A DNA stretch of 22,378 bases from a virus. The stretch lies in IMG/VR virus record IMGVR_UViG_3300020195_000173, positions 1 to 22,378 of that record, one strand, 5' to 3'. The position numbers and the translations under genes are program-made. Positions 4,794-12,698 of this stretch are shown one piece after another; positions within the stretch are counted from its first letter, which is position 1; the number at the start of each line of letters is the position of its first letter. The notes under the pieces are model-generated. The model did not search any database and was not told the origin of the DNA. It saw only the letters and a program-made list of their open reading frames with translations.

Positions 4794-5425
4794 ATCATTT
4801 TTTGATGGAATTAAAGGAAATCGCCGAAACCGGCATCTTCCGCGGCATCGCATCAGTGTACGGAGCCGAGGACCTGGGCGGGGACGTGATAGACAAGGGC
4901 GCGTTTACAAAAACCTTGTCAGAAAACCCAATGGTGCCGCTACTCTGGCAGCATCGCTCTTCCGATGTCATCGGCAGTATCTCGCTGAAGGAATGGCAGG
5001 GCAAAATCATGGGCGATGGCGCCCTTGACATGGAAGACCCTGAAGTGTCGGGAAAGATCTACGGGAAAATGAAGCGGCGCATGGTCAAGGGTCTGTCCAT
5101 CGGCTTTCAGGCAATCAAAACGGCATGGGTCGAGGAGTCCGGCAAGCAGATCCGCCATATCGCTGAACTGAAATTGTGGGAAGTGTCAGTGGTGACATTC
5201 CCGATGCTCCCGTCTGCTCAAATCACGAATGTGAAAGAGCACGATGATACCCTCGCGCGCCTGATGCGCGCTGAAGCAGAAATTGAGGCACTCAAGGCAA
5301 AGTACGGCACTCATATTGAGCCGCCGATCGCCGCAGAGCCGCCAAACGCTAAAGGCGCTGAGCCGGGCAACCACTCGCGCGCACTGTATTTGATCGAGAG
5401 CCTTCGCCTCGGTCTAGCCAACTAA
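4790..5425 (+). CDS. Prohead maturation protease (HK97 family, peptidase U35/S78)
   Basis: This 211-residue serine protease should remove the scaffold-like N-terminal delta domain of the capsid protein during prohead maturation. The family pattern is visible: GIFRGIASVYGAEDLGGDVIDKGAF near the start, a catalytic His in LLWQHR (His 55), a catalytic Ser in GLSIGF (Ser 103) and an acidic residue in KLWEVSVVTFP (Glu 131). The last 60 or so residues are Pro/Ala-rich with a short helical stretch and may act as a scaffold contact. It overlaps the portal gene by four bases (ATGA). Confidence 0.93.
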   Translation: MNHFLMELKEIAETGIFRGIASVYGAEDLGGDVIDKGAFTKTLSENPMVPLLWQHRSSDVIGSISLKEWQGKIMGDGALDMEDPEVSGKIYGKMKRRMVKGLSIGFQAIKTAWVEESGKQIRHIAELKLWEVSVVTFPMLPSAQITNVKEHDDTLARLMRAEAEIEALKAKYGTHIEPPIAAEPPNAKGAEPGNHSRALYLIESLRLGLAN

Positions 5426-5447: not shown

Positions 5448-5468
5448 CCACTGTCGTGATGACAGAGG
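5448..5468 (+). promoter_or_regulatory. Covarying RNA hairpin overlapping the capsid gene ribosome site
   Basis: The transcript can fold as CC / A-A mismatch / CUGUC - GUGAU loop - GACAG / GG. The 3' GG belongs to the Shine-Dalgarno GAGGAG (5465-5470), which stands six bases from the GTG at 5477. The same architecture occurs before the major tail gene (12241-12260). Two base pairs there are exchanged for other Watson-Crick pairs (C-G to T-A in the lower stem, T-A to C-G in the upper stem) and the A-A mismatch is kept. This covariation points to selection on RNA structure. The role, as a translational operator or a stability element, is inferred. Confidence 0.6.
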
Positions 5469-5476
5469 AGATTATT

Positions 5477-6673
5477 GTGGACCCACTTGAAAAAGCCCTG
5501 CTAGAGTTGCAGGCCGAGCAAAAGGCGAGTTTCGCCCGACTCGAAACCAAGGCAGATGAGCAGTTTGCCAAGTCAGGAAATGTTACCAGTGAACTTAAAG
5601 AGGAATTTGATCGGCTGGTCAAGCGATACGATGATCTAGAAGTTCGAGTGGCCAGCGCGCGCTCGAAGGTCGAATCGAAGTCAGTCTTCGATTTCCTCCG
5701 GGAAGACGAACCGCTTCAGCGATTCATGAAAGACCGCTCGGGCACTTGCCGAGTGGCACTGAATGAAAAGCACGCAGCCGAACTGTTCGCTTACAAAACG
5801 ACCGTCACAACCGGCACGGGAACCGGCTATGCGGCTGCGGGAGTCCTGGAGATAGACCGCGATCCGGGTGTCGTGTACGAGGCGCGGCGTATGCTCAAGA
5901 TGCGCAACGTCATCCCGGCACGGCCCACCGCATTCGGTAAAGTCTACTGGGTCAAGGTGAATGCACCGATGACCAAGGCGTCGCCAGTGGCTGAAGGCCT
6001 TTTGAAGCCGGAAAACCAGATGACGTTCACGACCGTCGGGGAAACCTTGCGCGTCATTGCAACGTTCATTACGGCCAGTCGCCAAGTGCTCGAGGACTGG
6101 GGCGAGCTGATGGGGATTTTGCAAACTTCCCTTCGCTACGAAGTCGACAAGGAAGACGACCGGCAAATTCTTCACGGTGATGGAACCGGCGAGAACTACG
6201 ACGGCCTCATCACCCAGGCGACGGCATATACCACAGGGCTAACCGGCTCCGCAGCGTTCAACCGTGCCGATCAAATCGGGCGAGCCATACAGCAAATTGC
6301 TTCGGCAGACGAAACGGAACCTGGATTTGTCGTCATGAATCCAGCCGATTGGTGGAATGTCCGGCTCACCAAGGATTCCAACGGTAATTACATTTTCGGA
6401 TCGCCATCTCAGCGTGGCGCGCCGGGGCTGTTTGACCTTACGCCAATCGTTACAACTGCGATTGGGGTGGGGAAATTCCTGGTAGGCTCTTCGCAGGCTG
6501 CTGCGGCTGAAATCCGTGATGGCTTTGGGACCGAGGTTGAGATCAGCACTCAGCATGATGTAAATTTTACCAAAAATTTAATTACCATCCGTGCAGAACG
6601 GCGATCCTTGCTCACTGTCAAGCGCCCTGGCGCGTTTATTTACGGCACGTTTGCAACTTCGCCGGCATCCTAA
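5477..6673 (+). CDS. Major capsid protein (HK97 fold)
   Basis: This 398-residue protein should build the icosahedral head. Residues 1-65 are a charged coiled-coil region (LEKALLELQAEQ through KEEFDRLVKRYDDLEVRV), the delta or scaffold domain, likely removed by the upstream protease. The rest matches HK97-type major capsid proteins, with TGTGYAAAGVLEIDRDPG, MRNVIPARPT, ILHGDGTGENYDGL and FVVMNPADWWNVRLTKD as landmarks. The GTG at 5477 is chosen because GAGGAG lies six bases upstream; in-frame GTG and ATG codons at 5456 and 5459 lie within the leader hairpin loop. No separate scaffold gene is seen. A terminator-like hairpin follows. Confidence 0.93.
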   Translation: MDPLEKALLELQAEQKASFARLETKADEQFAKSGNVTSELKEEFDRLVKRYDDLEVRVASARSKVESKSVFDFLREDEPLQRFMKDRSGTCRVALNEKHAAELFAYKTTVTTGTGTGYAAAGVLEIDRDPGVVYEARRMLKMRNVIPARPTAFGKVYWVKVNAPMTKASPVAEGLLKPENQMTFTTVGETLRVIATFITASRQVLEDWGELMGILQTSLRYEVDKEDDRQILHGDGTGENYDGLITQATAYTTGLTGSAAFNRADQIGRAIQQIASADETEPGFVVMNPADWWNVRLTKDSNGNYIFGSPSQRGAPGLFDLTPIVTTAIGVGKFLVGSSQAAAAEIRDGFGTEVEISTQHDVNFTKNLITIRAERRSLLTVKRPGAFIYGTFATSPAS

Positions 6674-6689
6674 CCAGCGAGCAGTACCG

Positions 6690-6710
6690 AGGGGCGGGCC
6701 TTCCGCCCCT
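6690..6710 (+). terminator. Terminator-like hairpin after the capsid gene
   Basis: AGGGGCGG (6690-6697) and CCGCCCCT (6703-6710) form an eight-base-pair GC-rich stem with a five-base loop. The tail TCAATTTA is only partly T-rich, so termination may be incomplete. It lies 16 bases after the capsid stop and seven bases before the next ATG. A leaky terminator here would separate the abundant capsid message from the glycosyltransferase cassette. Confidence 0.55.
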
Positions 6711-6717
6711 TCAATTT

Positions 6718-7518
6718 ATGCGCATCGTATTCCACAGAGACCTATTCAATCCGGCTGTTTACGGGCAAGCCTTCGATGGCGACGTAAAGGAGCTGCCGGA
6801 CGATATCGCGGCATCACTCATAAAGCGAGATTTGGCTAGTGAATGGTACGCGACACCTCCTATTGAGTCAGTTGGTGCTCCCGCATCCGGCCCTGGCTCC
6901 ATTTCCTGCATTATGCCGACCCGCAACCGGAGGAAATGGGTGCCGCGTGCAATCGAGTGTTTTCTATCCCAGACATACGCGGATCGGGAATTGATCGTGC
7001 TCGACAATGGCGAATCAGTCGCCGATCTCATCCCGCGCGACGCCAGAATCAGATACATGAGGATCAGTGATAACCACAAAACAGGCCAGCTTAGAAACTT
7101 CTGCTGCCAACTCAGCCAAGCCGAATTTATCGCCCATTGGGACGACGACGACTGGAGCCATCCCGAGCGATTGGCGGAGCAAATTGAGGCGATTGGCGAC
7201 CAAGCAGTTACGGGTTACCGCACCATCCTTTTCGCGGGAGATACGGGCGTTTTTAGATACTCCGGAGAACAAAACTACGCCCTCGGAACCAGCCTCCTCT
7301 ATCGCCGATCCTGGTGGGCGGAACACCGCTTCCCGGCGGAAATGACAGGCGAAGATGCGGCATTTGTCACGCGGGCGCAAGGCAACATCGTTATCACGAA
7401 CGGGCTGGCGCGAATTGTCGCTAGCATTCACGATTCTCACACATCACCGCGGAGTATCACGGGTCCGGCGTGGTCGCAAGCGTCCACAGATGATTTACCG
7501 AAGGAGTACAGAGCATGA
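6718..7518 (+). CDS. Family 2 glycosyltransferase with extra N-terminal head-protein-like module
   Basis: This 266-residue protein contains a GT-A-type glycosyltransferase from about residue 61. SISCIMPTRNRRKWVPRAIECFLSQTY is the usual GT2 opening, and WDDDDW (141-146) holds the DxD-type metal and nucleotide-sugar site. Residues 1-45 are not part of that fold. Their VKELPDDIAASLIKRDLASEW stretch resembles the short phage proteins that often follow capsid genes, so this may be a fusion that targets the enzyme to the head. No ribosome site is evident; the terminator-like hairpin occupies that place. The sugar and acceptor are unknown. The four-base overlap with the next gene indicates coupled translation. 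Confidence 0.82.
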   Translation: MRIVFHRDLFNPAVYGQAFDGDVKELPDDIAASLIKRDLASEWYATPPIESVGAPASGPGSISCIMPTRNRRKWVPRAIECFLSQTYADRELIVLDNGESVADLIPRDARIRYMRISDNHKTGQLRNFCCQLSQAEFIAHWDDDDWSHPERLAEQIEAIGDQAVTGYRTILFAGDTGVFRYSGEQNYALGTSLLYRRSWWAEHRFPAEMTGEDAAFVTRAQGNIVITNGLARIVASIHDSHTSPRSITGPAWSQASTDDLPKEYRA

Positions 7519-8246
7519 GCGTGTGGTATTGCATTCCCTCCGCGCGGCCGGCAGCCGAGGCGCAGGCGTGCGTTGAGGCGTGGCGCGCGATGGGTTATTG
7601 CGTCGCTGTGTGGCGCGACATCGGAGCCGATTTGCTGGACTGCGATTATTCTCGATACGGCGAGTATCCGGGCTACGCGCGAGCCGTGAACGCGCTCGCC
7701 GCCGATGTGCTTGCGATAGACACGGCTTGCGATTGGATCGTTACCGGCGGCGATGATGTGTTCCCGGATACGACGAAGCTGGCGGAAGAGATTGCTGTTG
7801 GTTGCTCGGAGCACTTCCGCGAATATCGGACAGTTATGTTGCATAGCTTTTCCCCGTCAGAAACCTACGGCGTAATGCAGCCCACTGGCGACCGCTTCGC
7901 CGATGGCAGTATCGACCGCATAGCCGGAAGCCCGTGGATGGGCCGTGAATGGTGCCAGCGCGCCCACGGTGGCACCGGACCATTACACCAGAACTTCACG
8001 CACATGCACGTCGATGAGGCGCTACAGGGCGCGGCTGTGGCGCAGGGCGTATTTTGGCAGCGACCGGACCTTACGCAATTGCACCGGCATTTCATGCGGG
8101 AAAGCGACGATATCAATTCACCAGCCGTCGGCAAGCCGATCCCGGCGCATTTAGTGAAGGCAAATTCTGCTTCCCACTGGGCCGAATCTAAAGCTATCTT
8201 TGAACGTATCAAGAGTGGCGGGTTCGCGGAGTGCTTGCCCGTATGA
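7515..8246 (+). CDS. Glycosyltransferase-like phage protein
   Basis: This 243-residue protein looks like a GT-A-fold glycosyltransferase. It starts with a beta strand (VWYCIPSARP), then GYARAVNALAADVLA and DWIVTGGDDVFPD near residues 73-85, where the GGDD segment is the likely metal or nucleotide-sugar site. The second half is rich in His, Trp and Arg (GTGPLHQNFTHMHVDEALQ, LTQLHRHFMRESDD), consistent with an acceptor site, but the acceptor cannot be named. It starts in an ATGA overlap with the previous gene and ends in one with the next. No membrane segment is present, so it should act in the cytoplasm. Confidence 0.68.
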   Translation: MSVWYCIPSARPAAEAQACVEAWRAMGYCVAVWRDIGADLLDCDYSRYGEYPGYARAVNALAADVLAIDTACDWIVTGGDDVFPDTTKLAEEIAVGCSEHFREYRTVMLHSFSPSETYGVMQPTGDRFADGSIDRIAGSPWMGREWCQRAHGGTGPLHQNFTHMHVDEALQGAAVAQGVFWQRPDLTQLHRHFMRESDDINSPAVGKPIPAHLVKANSASHWAESKAIFERIKSGGFAECLPV

Positions 8247-8473
8247 CGCAGCAAACAGCAGCTAGGCTTGCGCTGGTCGATGACTACGCACGCCAACAAG
8301 TGCCACGAGGTATGGTGACATGCCTAGGCGGGGACGCCAAAGAATTAATCATAAAAGCCATGGAGGCGGAGGGATTGCTGCGGAGGCTGAATCCAAATAT
8401 CAACTACAACGTACGGCGTTATGAAGTGACGACTGCCGGGTGGGAATGGGTATCTGCGCGGAGGCATTTGTGA
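8243..8473 (+). CDS. Small winged-helix-like hypothetical protein
   Basis: This 76-residue protein has the look of a winged helix: KELIIKAMEAEGLLRRL as the recognition-helix region, then VRRYEVTTAGWEWVSARRHL as the wing and final helix. This assignment is by pattern only. The ATG at 8243 is preferred because it overlaps the upstream stop (ATGA); a start at 8231 is also in frame. It ends in a GTGA overlap with the methyltransferase gene. It may regulate the cassette or be a small adaptor. Function unknown. Confidence 0.5.
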   Translation: MTQQTAARLALVDDYARQQVPRGMVTCLGGDAKELIIKAMEAEGLLRRLNPNINYNVRRYEVTTAGWEWVSARRHL

Positions 8474-9150
8474 GCTTCGATAACGTCGCATGGCGACCGA
8501 TGCACTACTCGATAGGTGTCGAGATTGGCTCAGACTTTGCAGACGCGGAGCCGGGCAGCCCGATGCATTGGCAGCATAACAACGTCGGATTTTGGAGTCG
8601 CGAGGAGGCCCGGCTACTTCGAGACATCGCAGCGCAATTCCGGGGGCATTGGATCGAGATAGGGTCTCATACCGGCTGGACCGCGGCGCAAATCGTCGCC
8701 GCCGGCGCAACCGTTACGACGATTGACCCGATGTTCGCGTCGCCTTCATTTTTCCAACAATTCGCGCGGAATATGAACGCTGAAATGTGCGCAGGGCAGG
8801 TGATTCCCTGGCCCGGCCAGTCGGACTGGTACTTCGAGCATTGGGTAGACCATAGATTTATCGGCGGTCTAATTGACGGTGATCACGATCACCCGCACCC
8901 GCTACGCGATGCGATAAACTGCTACCGGCAACTTGAACAGCGCGGCGTGATCGTCCTTCACGACTTCCGCGGTCCTGGACCGTGGGCCGCGGGCGAGTAT
9001 CTAGCGAAGCAGGGGATGCAGTACAAAATTTACGGCTCCGTTCACATGGTCGCCGTGTTCTGGCGCGGGGAGTTCACTCCACCGCCTGAAATAGTCGAGG
9101 GGAATACGAATTGGACGATGAATTACGGGCTGCCGGAGTGGATGAAGTGA
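8470..9150 (+). CDS. SAM-dependent methyltransferase (Methyltransf_24-like)
   Basis: This 226-residue protein has the class I methyltransferase pattern: WIEIGSHTGWTA (motif I, about 61-72), VTTIDP (motif II, about 82-87), GLIDGDHDHPH (about 133-143) and VIVLHDF (about 160-166). The IDGDH...LHD pair is typical of family 24 and cephalosporin-hydroxylase-like enzymes, often found in glycan clusters, where they O-methylate sugars. The GTG at 8470 is chosen because it overlaps the previous stop (GTGA) and GGAGG lies at 8460-8464. The context between glycosyltransferases suggests methylation of a transferred sugar, which is inference. Confidence 0.8.
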   Translation: MSFDNVAWRPMHYSIGVEIGSDFADAEPGSPMHWQHNNVGFWSREEARLLRDIAAQFRGHWIEIGSHTGWTAAQIVAAGATVTTIDPMFASPSFFQQFARNMNAEMCAGQVIPWPGQSDWYFEHWVDHRFIGGLIDGDHDHPHPLRDAINCYRQLEQRGVIVLHDFRGPGPWAAGEYLAKQGMQYKIYGSVHMVAVFWRGEFTPPPEIVEGNTNWTMNYGLPEWMK

Positions 9151-9941
9151 AGAAACTCCTCATCACATTTGGCGGATCAGCATACGACTCAGTCACCGCA
9201 AAAACCGTTGAAAGCGCGCCGAGATTAGGCGCTGACGAAGTGCTTGTCTATGATGACAAGTGGCTCACAGAGCAGCCGCTATTCTCCGATTTCAGATTTC
9301 AACATCTGTTCACCCACAAGGGCGTAGGAAACCCGCAAGGGCGCCGCGGATTCGGCTGGATGTCGTGGAAGCCGACAATTATCATGGACGCGCTTAACCG
9401 ATCCAATGATGGTGATATCGTGCTTTTCGTCGATGCCGACACATCCCCGGTCGCTGACTTCAGTGCCTTATATCGCCAGTGTGCGGCTGACGGCGGAATC
9501 ATGGCGTTCATGGCGACTGGAACGACCGGGCCACTACGGAACGGCGACTGGAACAAGCGCGACTGCATGATTACTATGGAAGTGGATGAGCCGAAATACC
9601 TGGACGCCGGGGCCGCTGTAGCGCGCTTCATGTTGCTACAAAAGGGTGCTCCAGGAGTGGCTGAATTCCTAGAAAAATGGCACTATTTCGCGTTAAACGA
9701 ATCGTGCCAGACGTTTGAACCTTCGGTGCTTGCGCCTGAGCATCCGGGATTTCGTGAGCATCGCTGTGAGCAAAGCGTATTTTCGAATCTGGTTCACATG
9801 GCTGGACTAAAACTTTATCGCGAGGCCTGCGAATTTGGCAAAGATTGCCCGCAAGATTGGGACTTGTATCCACAGCTATTTTCCCAAGTCTACGCTGGCG
9901 GAGAAAAGAACCTGAACGGTAGCCGGTTTCGAAATGTATAG
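9147..9941 (+). CDS. Glycosyltransferase-like protein with DAD motif
   Basis: This protein of about 264 residues carries GFGWMSWKPTIIMDAL followed by GDIVLFVDADT (about 90-99), a combination typical of GT-A glycosyltransferases of the capsule/GT32-like kind, with DAD as the metal site. A later VAEFLEKWHYFAL then HRCEQSVFSNLVHM segment matches the acceptor side of such enzymes. The GTG at 9147 forms a GTGA overlap with the methyltransferase stop, with GGAG upstream at 9135-9138. A longer in-frame start at 9111 would lie inside the methyltransferase gene and is less likely. Twenty-one bases separate it from the next gene. Confidence 0.75.
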   Translation: MKKLLITFGGSAYDSVTAKTVESAPRLGADEVLVYDDKWLTEQPLFSDFRFQHLFTHKGVGNPQGRRGFGWMSWKPTIIMDALNRSNDGDIVLFVDADTSPVADFSALYRQCAADGGIMAFMATGTTGPLRNGDWNKRDCMITMEVDEPKYLDAGAAVARFMLLQKGAPGVAEFLEKWHYFALNESCQTFEPSVLAPEHPGFREHRCEQSVFSNLVHMAGLKLYREACEFGKDCPQDWDLYPQLFSQVYAGGEKNLNGSRFRNV

Positions 9942-9962
9942 CGAAAACCTGATTTTACAGCG

Positions 9963-10814
9963 ATGAATTTAACCGCAATCATGCCAGCCCGCAACGAGGC
10001 GTGGGTACTCGGCCTGAGTGCTCGCGCGGCGCTCACGTGGTGCGATTCCATTGTGATCCTTGACCATGCCAGCGAAGACGAAACAATCGCCATAGTTTGC
10101 GGTTTAATGGACGAATTCCGTGGCCGAGTTAGCTTTCTCGGCGAGCCGAGCCCGGTCTGGAACGAAATGAATCACCGGCAGCGGCTTCTCGACTTCGCTC
10201 GAGGAATTGGTGCCACCCATATCGCGCCAGTTGACGCTGACGAAGTGCTCGCGGGCGATATGCTACCAGATATTCGGAGCCATATCGAAGGGCTACTACC
10301 GGGCCAGTTTTTATCTTGTAAAATGCGGAATCTCCACCGCTCCATTGATCGCTATCGGAGCGATAACAGCCCGTTTGGTTCGATGGCGGGAACGATGCTC
10401 GCCTTCGCCGATTCGCCTGGACTGGCATGGGCGGCGCGGAACGGGTACCAGCATCACCAGCGAAGCCCCCACGGATCGTATCAAGGGCCTTGCATTGAGG
10501 GAGGCGGGATCATGCATTTACAGTTTGCAAACTGGGACCGGCTGACGGCAAAGCAGAGCTGGTATCAGTGCATGGAGCGCATAAAGTACCCATCTAAACC
10601 AAGGCAAGAACTCGCACGAGCCTACGGGAGATCGATGGACGAAAGCGGGCTTGAAACGTCCGAAGTCCCGGCTGCGTGGTGGCAGCCATACGAGGCATAC
10701 ATGCACTACCTCCATATCGACGTGAAGCCATGGCACAGGGCGGAAATAAACCGCATGTTTGCCGAGCACGGCGCGGAGTATTTTAGCGGGTTGAATTTGA
10801 TCGGGGTCTCATAA
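9963..10814 (+). CDS. Family 2 glycosyltransferase
   Basis: This 283-residue protein begins MNLTAIMPARNEAWVLG, a classical GT2 start, followed by CDSIVILDHASEDET and APVDADEVLAGDM (DAD at about 91-93). The middle holds GPCIEGGGIMHLQFANWDRL, and the C-terminal region is rich in Trp and Tyr and suggests an acceptor-binding lid. It is the last cassette gene and stops directly against the start of the head-tail connector gene, so the cassette sits seamlessly in the structural operon. No good ribosome site is seen in the 21 bases before its ATG. Substrate unknown. Confidence 0.82.
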   Translation: MNLTAIMPARNEAWVLGLSARAALTWCDSIVILDHASEDETIAIVCGLMDEFRGRVSFLGEPSPVWNEMNHRQRLLDFARGIGATHIAPVDADEVLAGDMLPDIRSHIEGLLPGQFLSCKMRNLHRSIDRYRSDNSPFGSMAGTMLAFADSPGLAWAARNGYQHHQRSPHGSYQGPCIEGGGIMHLQFANWDRLTAKQSWYQCMERIKYPSKPRQELARAYGRSMDESGLETSEVPAAWWQPYEAYMHYLHIDVKPWHRAEINRMFAEHGAEYFSGLNLIGVS

Positions 10815-11393
10815 ATGGCACGCCTAAAACTCACTGTAACATCGCCGCCGCAAATCCTCACTGAGCCGATTTTCGCCAGTGATGTTCTAGAGTATTTGGA
10901 AATCCCAGCCGCAGACACAACGCGGGCGAGCCTTATCGCGCGACTCATCACGGCGGCGCGGACAGTTGCCGAACTGCGCCAAGGCCGAGACCTTGTTTCT
11001 AAGCAGTGGGACCTGACGACCGAATCCTTCCCTTCATTTATTCAGCTACGAGAAGGAGCCTCATCCGTAGACCTTATCCGCTATCGCGATTCAACTGGGG
11101 CATATGTATCACTCGTTGATTCCACTGAATACATTTTTGACTCCATGGACGGTGTTATCACTCCGATTTATGGAGGCTCCTGGCCATCCTTCACTGCATG
11201 GCCAAACTCTCCGATCCTAATCCGATACACGGTAACCGCGGCGGCTGTTGAGGCCGACGTCATACAGGGAATGCACTTCCTGATTACCCAATGGTATTTT
11301 AACCGCGTGCCGGCGGAAATCGCGGGCTCAAAAGTAGCTGAATATCCGTTCGCGCTGGCACTGCTTGACCATGGCAAAGTGGAGAGCGTCTAG
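10815..11393 (+). CDS. Head-tail connector protein (phiE125 gp8 / HK97 gp6-like)
   Basis: This 192-residue protein matches the phiE125 gp8-type family, a relative of HK97 gp6 that binds under the portal and forms the upper neck. The helical start (ASDVLEYLEIPAADTTRASLIARLITAARTVAELRQGRDLVSKQWDL) is followed by SVDLIRYRDSTGAYVSL, YGGSWPSFTAWPNSPILIRYT and a C-terminal helix pair with FLITQWYFNR. In most phages with this gene order it sits soon after the capsid gene; here the glycosyltransferase cassette separates the two. The ATG directly follows the upstream stop. Confidence 0.82.
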   Translation: MARLKLTVTSPPQILTEPIFASDVLEYLEIPAADTTRASLIARLITAARTVAELRQGRDLVSKQWDLTTESFPSFIQLREGASSVDLIRYRDSTGAYVSLVDSTEYIFDSMDGVITPIYGGSWPSFTAWPNSPILIRYTVTAAAVEADVIQGMHFLITQWYFNRVPAEIAGSKVAEYPFALALLDHGKVESV

Positions 11394-11761
11394 TGTTCGG
11401 CGTCCAACGATCCGACCGCAATCCGGGCCGGTTTAACTGCGCGCTGACGCTCGAGCCATCGTCAGAAGCGCAAAGCACCGCGGGCGACCATCAGCCCGGC
11501 TGGGATACCGCTCAGCCCATTGCCGTCCACGGGCGATGGATGCCAGCTAAATCAATAATTGGCCAGTCCGGCATGGCGCAAACGAAATTCGACGAGTCTG
11601 AGGGGCGATGGGAGATCCCTTGGGTCCAGGCATTAACTTCTGAGTACCGGGTTGCATTTGGAGTTAGGCTCTATCGCATCATCGGTATAGAAAACCTGGG
11701 CGAACGCAACCGCGAACTGCATCTTTATTGCGTCGAGGATGAGGGGGCAAAGGGCGTATGA
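11393..11761 (+). CDS. Head-tail adaptor / stopper-like protein
   Basis: This 122-residue protein is probably a head-tail joining protein (SPP1 gp16 / HK97 gp7-like neck family). The small beta-barrel pattern is consistent: PIAVHGRWMPAKSI, then WVQALTSEYRVAFGVRLYRIIGIENLGERNRELHLYCVED, in which the last part (RLYRIIGIENLGERNRELHLYC) is the strongest match. It starts at GTG in a TAGTG overlap with the connector stop and ends in an ATGA overlap with the next gene. Position between connector and DUF3168-like gene supports the role. Confidence 0.72.
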   Translation: MFGVQRSDRNPGRFNCALTLEPSSEAQSTAGDHQPGWDTAQPIAVHGRWMPAKSIIGQSGMAQTKFDESEGRWEIPWVQALTSEYRVAFGVRLYRIIGIENLGERNRELHLYCVEDEGAKGV

Positions 11762-12198
11762 GAATCCAATCCGCCATCGTCGCGTACCTGCAGCAGGCAT
11801 CTACGGCAACCTATGCGCTTGTGGCTTCACGCACGTCCTGGGCGATCCCCGAGACAAACCCGGCCCTACCATTCATTCGCGTTCGCAAAGCCGGACACAG
11901 GCCGCTGGCGAAGGCTATGGCGACACAGACGCAATACCCATCTGATGCAAACATTGAAATCGTCGCCTACGCCAAATCACAGGACGGGGCGGCGGACATC
12001 ATGGACGCGGTCACAGCCGATTTGCTCGCCGTCATCAGCCAGCGATTGCCGGTTACATCCCCGGTTACTGCTGGTGTGCCGTGGGTGAATATGATTCACG
12101 TCGCCGACGAAGAAGACCTCGTATCCGAGGAGGCCCGCGCAAAAGGGATTTTCGCTGAAGCGCGGATGTACTCCGTAATATACGATTTCAGACCTTGA
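11758..12198 (+). CDS. Tail completion / tail terminator-like protein (DUF3168-like)
   Basis: This 146-residue protein resembles the DUF3168 tail completion family, which caps the tail tube and joins it to the neck. It has a leading helix (IQSAIVAYLQQAS), FIRVRKAGHRPLAKAMATQTQYPSDANIEIVAYAKSQDGAADIMDAVTADLLAV in the centre, and a last strand AEARMYSVIYDFRP. It starts in an ATGA overlap with the adaptor gene. The next gene is the major tail protein, the usual order. Confidence 0.7.
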   Translation: MRIQSAIVAYLQQASTATYALVASRTSWAIPETNPALPFIRVRKAGHRPLAKAMATQTQYPSDANIEIVAYAKSQDGAADIMDAVTADLLAVISQRLPVTSPVTAGVPWVNMIHVADEEDLVSEEARAKGIFAEARMYSVIYDFRP

Positions 12199-12202
12199 TT
12201 CC

Positions 12203-12226
12203 GCGGACTGTCGTGAGATAGACCGC
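12203..12226 (+). promoter_or_regulatory. First leader hairpin before the major tail gene
   Basis: GCGG / A-A mismatch / CTGTC - GTGA loop - GATAG / CCGC can pair along nine base pairs, including one G-T wobble. It shares the A-A mismatch, CTGYC stem and GTGA loop with the hairpins at 5448-5468 and 12241-12260. It begins a few bases after the tail completion stop. A GUGA loop closed by C-G is a GNRA tetraloop, a stable RNA element. Confidence 0.55.
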
Positions 12227-12240
12227 TAACCACAAACTAA

Positions 12241-12260
12241 CTACTGCCGTGAGGCAGAAG
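12241..12260 (+). promoter_or_regulatory. Second leader hairpin overlapping the major tail gene ribosome site
   Basis: CT / A-A mismatch / CTGCC - GTGA - GGCAG / AG can fold, with the 3' strand taking in the first bases of the Shine-Dalgarno AAGGAG (12258-12263). That site lies six bases before the ATG at 12270, the same spacing as in the capsid leader. It matches the capsid hairpin with two compensating base-pair changes. Pairing of the ribosome site suggests translational control. Confidence 0.6.
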
Positions 12261-12269
12261 GAGCCCCAC

Positions 12270-12698
12270 ATGCCTTATTCAGCGTCCGCCGTAGCAGGCC
12301 GCATTCTCGCCTACTCGGTCAGCAACTCTCCATTTTCATACATAACTATTCGCGGCGCGTCGAGCCTTTCCTATGGCAACGCGCAAAAAAACGACATCAA
12401 CGTAACCGCTATCAGTGATGAGGATGAGGTCTTTATCGCCGGTCGCCGGCAGGCGGCTGAAATCACTTTCAGCGTATATGTTGATTACGATGAACCCGCT
12501 CACGTGGCGCTGCTCGGCAACTTCGACGCAAACGCGCAAACGCTGATGTATTTTCGCGATACCCTGGACGCCACAGGCGCCGCAGCCAAGACCTTTGCTG
12601 CTTACGTAAAGCAATGGCAGGACTCCGCCGATGTTGACGGAGCTAACATGGCTGCAGTCGTGCTAAAAGTGTCGGGCGGCGTAGTAACTACCCCTTAA
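12270..12698 (+). CDS. Major tail tube protein
   Basis: This 142-residue protein is most likely the major tail protein that polymerises into the tail tube. It sits between the tail completion gene and the tail chaperones and tape measure, and is preceded by the same kind of leader hairpin as the capsid gene. The sequence is beta-rich with alternating polar and hydrophobic residues (ITIRGASSLSYGNAQKNDINVTAIS, EITFSVYVDYDEPAHVALLG). The family could not be confirmed by eye beyond this. The ATG at 12270 has AAGGAG six bases upstream. Confidence 0.75.
   Translation: MPYSASAVAGRILAYSVSNSPFSYITIRGASSLSYGNAQKNDINVTAISDEDEVFIAGRRQAAEITFSVYVDYDEPAHVALLGNFDANAQTLMYFRDTLDATGAAAKTFAAYVKQWQDSADVDGANMAAVVLKVSGGVVTTP

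Follow-up and report, generated by a model that had tools for sequence, protein, structure and literature searches.

The stretch of DNA studied here, 22,378 nucleotides (nt) of a virus (IMG/VR record IMGVR_UViG_3300020195_000173, positions 1 to 22,378; hereafter the window), contains a small RNA hairpin in front of two virion genes, those encoding the major capsid protein and the tail tube protein, and a third, related hairpin lies upstream of the second of these. In both gene leaders the 3' side of the hairpin runs into the Shine-Dalgarno (SD) site. The features are:

5448-5468, + strand: SD-adjacent hairpin of the capsid leader, CC A CUGUC GUGAU GACAG A GG, read from the sequence
5467-5470, + strand: SD site GGAG of the capsid gene, read from the sequence; its leading two G are in the lower stem
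5477-6673, + strand: major capsid protein gene (HK97 fold family; PF05065, E-value 3.4e-32), GTG start
12203-12226, + strand: upstream partner hairpin with a longer lower stem, GCGG A CUGUC GUGA GAUAG A CCGC, with G.U in the stem
12241-12260, + strand: SD-adjacent hairpin of the tail tube leader, CU A CUGCC GUGA GGCAG A AG, read from the sequence
12259-12263, + strand: SD site AGGAG of the tail tube gene, read from the sequence; the AG at its start pairs with the lower-stem CU
12270-12698, + strand: tail tube protein gene (lambda-like; PF16460, E-value 9.9e-9), ATG start

An earlier inspection of the letters alone (the sequence-only reading) had drawn these three hairpins and named the two genes. 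Direct reading and folding confirm the coordinates and pairing of the hairpins, and the matches to PF05065 and PF16460 confirm the gene calls. The start codon follows the GGAG after exactly 6 nt in both leaders (GTG at 5477, ATG at 12270), as had been stated, and the two compensating changes noted between the copies are seen in the sequence (C-G/U-A in the lower stem and U-A/C-G in the upper stem, capsid versus tail tube). The third hairpin, at 12203, does have the same mismatch and GUGA loop, and belongs to a class of partner hairpins that recurs in other leaders. A search of both strands of the window for two base pairs (bp), an A.A mismatch, five bp and a GTGA(N) loop returned three copies (5448, 12203 and 12241) and no others. 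When short segments were folded, the minimum free energy structure was the drawn hairpin for all three (z-scores of -2.2, -3.4 and -4.1, the last for the copy at 12203); in a 51-nt context the fold stability of the capsid leader is unremarkable (z -0.56). R2, a covariance model built solely from other phages with the window sequences left out, finds both SD-adjacent copies (E-values of 2.4e-10 for the tail tube leader and 2.6e-7 for the capsid leader) and matches nowhere else in the window; the copy at 12203, which belongs to a different, longer-stemmed class, is not reported. The hairpins do not resemble intrinsic terminators, as they run into AGGAG or CCGC without a T run, and on the + strand no terminator was called close to the capsid leader.

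A scan of IMG/VR for the hairpin together with an SD site found 30 contigs, where fewer than one is expected (an estimate from the count of specified bases); nearly all copies lie 5-10 nt ahead of the starts of capsid-, tail- or sheath-like genes of unrelated sequence, and one contig has two copies. Without the SD requirement the scan found 56 contigs, again mainly with the hairpin in virion-gene leaders. Whole hairpin-bearing records hold 1 to 3 copies each, and the stem type can vary between copies of one phage. The proteins encoded downstream fall into about 37 unrelated clusters, which include at least seven PHROG families of major head proteins (phrog_10, 334, 283, 371, 1328, 247 and 29; one Mu gpT-like), four of major tail proteins (1407, 158, 584 and 290; one labelled minor tail protein) and one of tail sheath proteins (phrog_23). 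A few leaders precede protease, portal or fibre-like genes, and a minority precede unknown or minor structural genes. The association with capsid and tail tube genes, proposed earlier as that of genes needed in bulk, is therefore borne out widely, but it is not exclusive, since portal, protease and sheath genes carry the hairpin too.

The sequence-only reading had set covariation beforehand as the test that could refute it, and relatives in IMG/VR show strong covariation, not mere retention of sequence. In a database scan that left three stem positions open on both arms, 38 of the 52 new matches among those listed are fully complementary, whereas about 5% would be by chance. Besides CTG/CAG, the stems include TCG/CGA, CCG/CGG, ACG/CGT and ATG/CAT, ahead of tail and capsid genes; the matches that lack complementarity are mostly away from genes. 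Among 39 distinct hairpins (window excluded), 98.5% of pairs are standard and six out of seven pairs show two-sided change, a percentage that is inflated because some rows were chosen by a script requiring pairing; a set of 40 distinct hairpins likewise gave more than 98% standard pairs and two-sided change at six of seven. The free-position scan, and the sample selected by protein similarity described below, are unaffected by this choice of rows. The covariation score is 0.53, compared with 0.24 when shuffled and at most 0.18 when slid. Because inverted repeats covary too, a DNA-level palindrome (e.g. a transcription-factor operator or part of a promoter) has to be weighed here, and we consider it very unlikely: in every leader examined the element is in the sense orientation just ahead of the SD site, conservation extends to the mismatch (A.A or A.G) and to the GNGA(N) loop, which is not palindromic and alternates in length between 4 and 5 nt, and some copies retain G.U pairs. 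Orientation, loop, mismatch and G.U pairs thus point to RNA rather than to a DNA palindrome.

Tail-tube loci picked by protein similarity, blind to the motif, carry the hairpin in 26 out of 26 leaders, with stems CTG, TCG and CCG and loops GTGA, GTGAC, GCGAC, GAGA and GACA; many of these leaders are near-identical, and the independent cases number nearer ten. Searches of IMG/VR with single proteins of the window (capsid, tail tube and terminase) found one close relative only (L003), whose capsid leader hairpin is identical. Among loci of the HK97 capsid family, relatives with at least 69% identity have a hairpin in the corresponding position, in many cases with a degenerate loop, whereas relatives at 42% identity or less have no hairpin, and none is present ahead of either the capsid or the tail tube gene in eight cultured phages whose capsids are about 30% alike. 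The hairpin is thus a lineage-level trait: the expectation that related phages would keep it holds for the tail-tube leaders in IMG/VR and fails for more distant relatives. Degenerate capsid-leader hairpins with a 4-bp CCGC/GCGG stem and enlarged loops are found in L099 (6680-6705), L046 (2110-2134) and L198 (4468-4492), and possibly show the element decaying in a single lineage. Taken at the level of the window, the likeness of a few short hairpins might be put down to chance, as short hairpins are frequent and the capsid leader is unremarkable in context; this explanation is practically eliminated by the E-values of the independent model, the scan counts, the homologous tail-tube leaders and the covariation. 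That a conserved cis-acting RNA element exists is, in our judgement, extremely likely.

The consensus of the element is CU-A-NYGYY-GNGA(N)-RRCRN-A-AGGAG, with the start codon 10-15 nt beyond the mismatch (10-12 nt in 86 out of 95 leaders). The mismatch is usually A.A and sometimes A.G; loop variants found elsewhere are GGGA, together with an A.G mismatch, and rarely GCAA or ACAA. The core of the motif as drawn from the window therefore stands, but its definition was too narrow with respect to the loop (GNGA(N)), the mismatch (A.G at times) and the stem (NYGYY). Two positions do not vary: the middle stem pair is G-C in all 39 distinct hairpins, despite having been open in the scan, and loop base 3 is G in 66 of 66 distinct leaders. 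This invariance exceeds the needs of stability and suggests that something reads the hairpin. A likeness to a known hairpin was weighed as well: the repeat hairpin of type I-F CRISPR (clustered regularly interspaced short palindromic repeats), CUGCC-GUAUA-GGCAG, is cleaved by Cas6f, and its CUGCC/GGCAG stem is that of the commonest tetraloop form of our element, so that a mimic, decoy or processing site could be imagined. We regard such a relation as extremely improbable, since other copies have an A-U or U-A basal pair and CCG, ACG or TCG stems, the loop and flanks differ, the element is tied to SD sites and virion genes, and the window has no repeat array, only three unevenly placed copies in 22 kilobases (kb).

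A second hairpin accompanies the SD-adjacent one in some phages. Of 71 distinct leaders, 15 have another hairpin within the preceding 90 nt, with a GNRA loop and six pairs or more; shuffles give 1.9. Many of these partners share the build of the SD hairpin with a longer lower stem, and two forms recur, xCGG-A-CUGUC-GUGA-GAUAG-A-CCGx and GGCSG-C-ACGUC-GUGA-GAUGU-U-CSGCC. The form at 12203 of the window is also found in L049, and related forms lie upstream of the SD hairpin in L006, L009, L046 and L074. A contact between hairpins, with a GUGA loop docking on a CU:AG receptor, was considered and set aside.

We favour, at a probability of about 0.4, the reading that the hairpin is a portable cis-acting translation-initiation element of structural-gene messages, read by a conserved host component; the action on translation, its positive sign and the host reader are what we infer. 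The leader would fold into the CU/AG lower pairs, purine-purine mismatch, 5-bp stem and GNGA or GNGA+1 loop, with the 3' foot extending into the SD site; a conserved host component, most plausibly the 30S initiation machinery, would recognise the folded hairpin, and recognition would make initiation at genes needed in bulk both strong and standardised. The longer-stemmed upstream hairpin, where present, probably strengthens the effect. In a bolder and doubtful version, the element would be a horizontally mobile, phage-wide start signal common to the virion genes of unrelated tailed phages and read by a universally conserved part of the host, for example the 30S subunit; it would be a structured SD extension unused by the hosts.

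The choice of a host reader comes from a search for trans-acting genes in 18 hairpin-bearing records (GC content 0.36-0.63), in which, at the level of BLAST and with most of the records incomplete, no gene was found in common beyond the ordinary head, packaging and tail genes. The absence of a shared extra gene, together with stem types that differ within one phage, argues for a host factor over a phage factor. The same result weakens the rival that a phage-encoded protein stabilises the weak lower stem, hides the SD site and so restrains or balances several virion genes together; nor would the product of the gene itself be a common binder, as the leaders front unrelated capsid and tail proteins. 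This operator would explain why covarying lower pairs occupy half of the SD site, and the invariant mismatch, middle G-C pair and GNGA loop resemble a recognition surface, while the paired hairpins would suit a dimer. It also agrees with predicted SD accessibility, which is 0.40 with the hairpin, 0.48 with the 5' arm complemented and 0.42 in other AAGGAG leaders. We consider the operator unlikely, though deserving of serious attention; of the shared translational operator suggested by the sequence-only reading, the covarying element at the SD site stands, and the binding of a phage protein is what the 18 mostly incomplete records, compared at BLAST level, make less likely.

Several points weigh against an initiation element that raises translation. 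Predicted folding gives no support for a hairpin that frees the SD site, and by this measure a switch or operator would fit at least as well. The gene-class frequencies are biased, as the initial matches were mostly chosen by pattern. Distant relatives do without the element, and hardly any cultured phage or bacterial genome carries it, save a few prophages of Spirochaetota, which is odd for a generally useful enhancer. The strict pattern occurs at one place in 257 gigabases of bacterial and archaeal genomes, at a phage-like gene of a Treponema metagenome-assembled genome; R2 gives six matches at E <= 0.001 in 393 Spirochaetota genomes, and the five inspected precede phage genes (two capsid, one portal and two fibre-like). 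Six hairpin variants searched with blastn against INPHARED gave almost no match at virion genes of cultured phages.

The hairpin might act instead on the message itself: after cleavage of a polycistronic late messenger RNA (mRNA) it would be a 5' shield, so that the capsid and tail-tube segments outlive their neighbours. Such a role in stability or processing would fit its location inside an operon, flanked by genes that run in the same direction; there is no promoter-like site close to the capsid leader. The second stable hairpin upstream in several leaders and the marking of genes required in most copies would fit as well. For a mere shield, however, any stable loop would do in place of GNGA, and neither an invariant middle G-C pair, nor a mismatch of purines, nor a constant distance to the SD site would be required; we think this explanation quite unlikely.

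Hairpin-like sequences were also observed in other contexts. In KVP40 (L038, 3001-3027) and Vibrio phage F86 (L124, around 1501), the core CUGUC GUGAU GAUAG with the flanking A.A caps a longer stem between transfer RNA genes, at a place with no Rfam family; the INPHARED matches in KVP40-like phages also fall in clusters of such genes. In Vibrio phage R16F (L040, 1918-2188) a group I intron (RF00028) that the record leaves unannotated contains the core, and a RecA-like gene follows downstream. Klebsiella phage phiKp_21 (L037, 4092-6182) has a 2-kb stretch without annotated genes, rich in AGTACT-type repeats, with one exact 23-nt match to the hairpin (approximately 5000-5026) that is non-coding and has no adjoining start codon. 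In L045 (10090-10116), L057 (6282-6308) and L064 (11278-11304), hairpin-like sequence makes up the very last part of a coding region ending ...EAVTA, perhaps because the C terminus is rich in Ala and Val and not because of an RNA function. A match upstream of the coat gene of a single-stranded RNA (ssRNA) phage is without the A.A mismatch and is probably due to chance. In the window itself, five genes at 6718-10814 separate the capsid gene from the head-tail connector genes, an unusual location for them; they resemble, by sequence, glycosyltransferases and a methyltransferase, and relatives of them are present in two other hairpin-bearing records (G018 and G025).

Promoters and SD strength are the usual explanation of how phages produce hundreds of capsid and tail tube subunits when their late messages are polycistronic. 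An element common to unrelated phages and apparently missing from host genes would indicate that a level of control, of translation or of stability, has been overlooked. The hairpin could be used as a marker of virion genes in metagenomes, and, as a compact part of about 26 nt, could be tried as a translation module in bacteria.

In Rfam 15, no match was found in the window up to an E-value of 5, the hairpins of six related loci gave none with an E-value of 1 or less, and searches of open-licence papers by sequence and by concept found no description of the motif, so that the earlier statement that it is undescribed holds within that literature. Among the known systems nearest in kind is the coat operator of ssRNA phages (MS2, Qbeta and PP7), also a small hairpin at a phage ribosome-binding site with specificity of sequence and structure. 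That operator has a bulged A two pairs under a 4-nt ANYA loop and spans the start codon region, whereas the element described here has a GNGA loop and a symmetric purine-purine mismatch five pairs down, leaves the start codon outside, lies upstream of the SD site ahead of the capsid and tail genes themselves, and occurs in many unrelated double-stranded DNA (dsDNA) phages for which a common binder was not found. Lambdoid boxB, the part of nut bound by N-type arginine-rich peptides, likewise has a 5-bp stem and a GNRA-like tetra- or pentaloop, a likeness that holds here on testing. Unlike nut, however, our element sits on the SD sites of late virion genes, has a conserved mismatch and lower pairs, and is found several times per genome; boxA-like matches in the window number 5 compared with 7.6 expected by chance, none of them at a + strand leader. 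Stabilising 5' stem-loops of the ompA type, and segmental mRNA stability in operons, also involve a stable hairpin just upstream of the ribosome-binding site, but to our knowledge neither sequence nor loop is conserved between unrelated genes in ompA-type stem-loops, in contrast to the invariant residues found here. Phage-associated cis elements in Rfam, e.g. Mu-gpT-DE, are similar in that a conserved RNA precedes a phage head gene; unlike that family, the hairpins tested here have no Rfam match, two Mu-gpT-like capsid leaders included. The type I-F CRISPR hairpin has a stem in common with the tetraloop form, and differs in loop, flanks, variability of the basal pair and context. Hairpins at phage ribosome-binding sites are thus of a known kind, whereas a covarying family across the virion genes of unrelated dsDNA phages is, as far as we have seen, apparently undescribed; in sequences that were not chosen by the motif, most pairs show compensatory changes, the SD site lies at a constant distance, and the context is that of virion genes.

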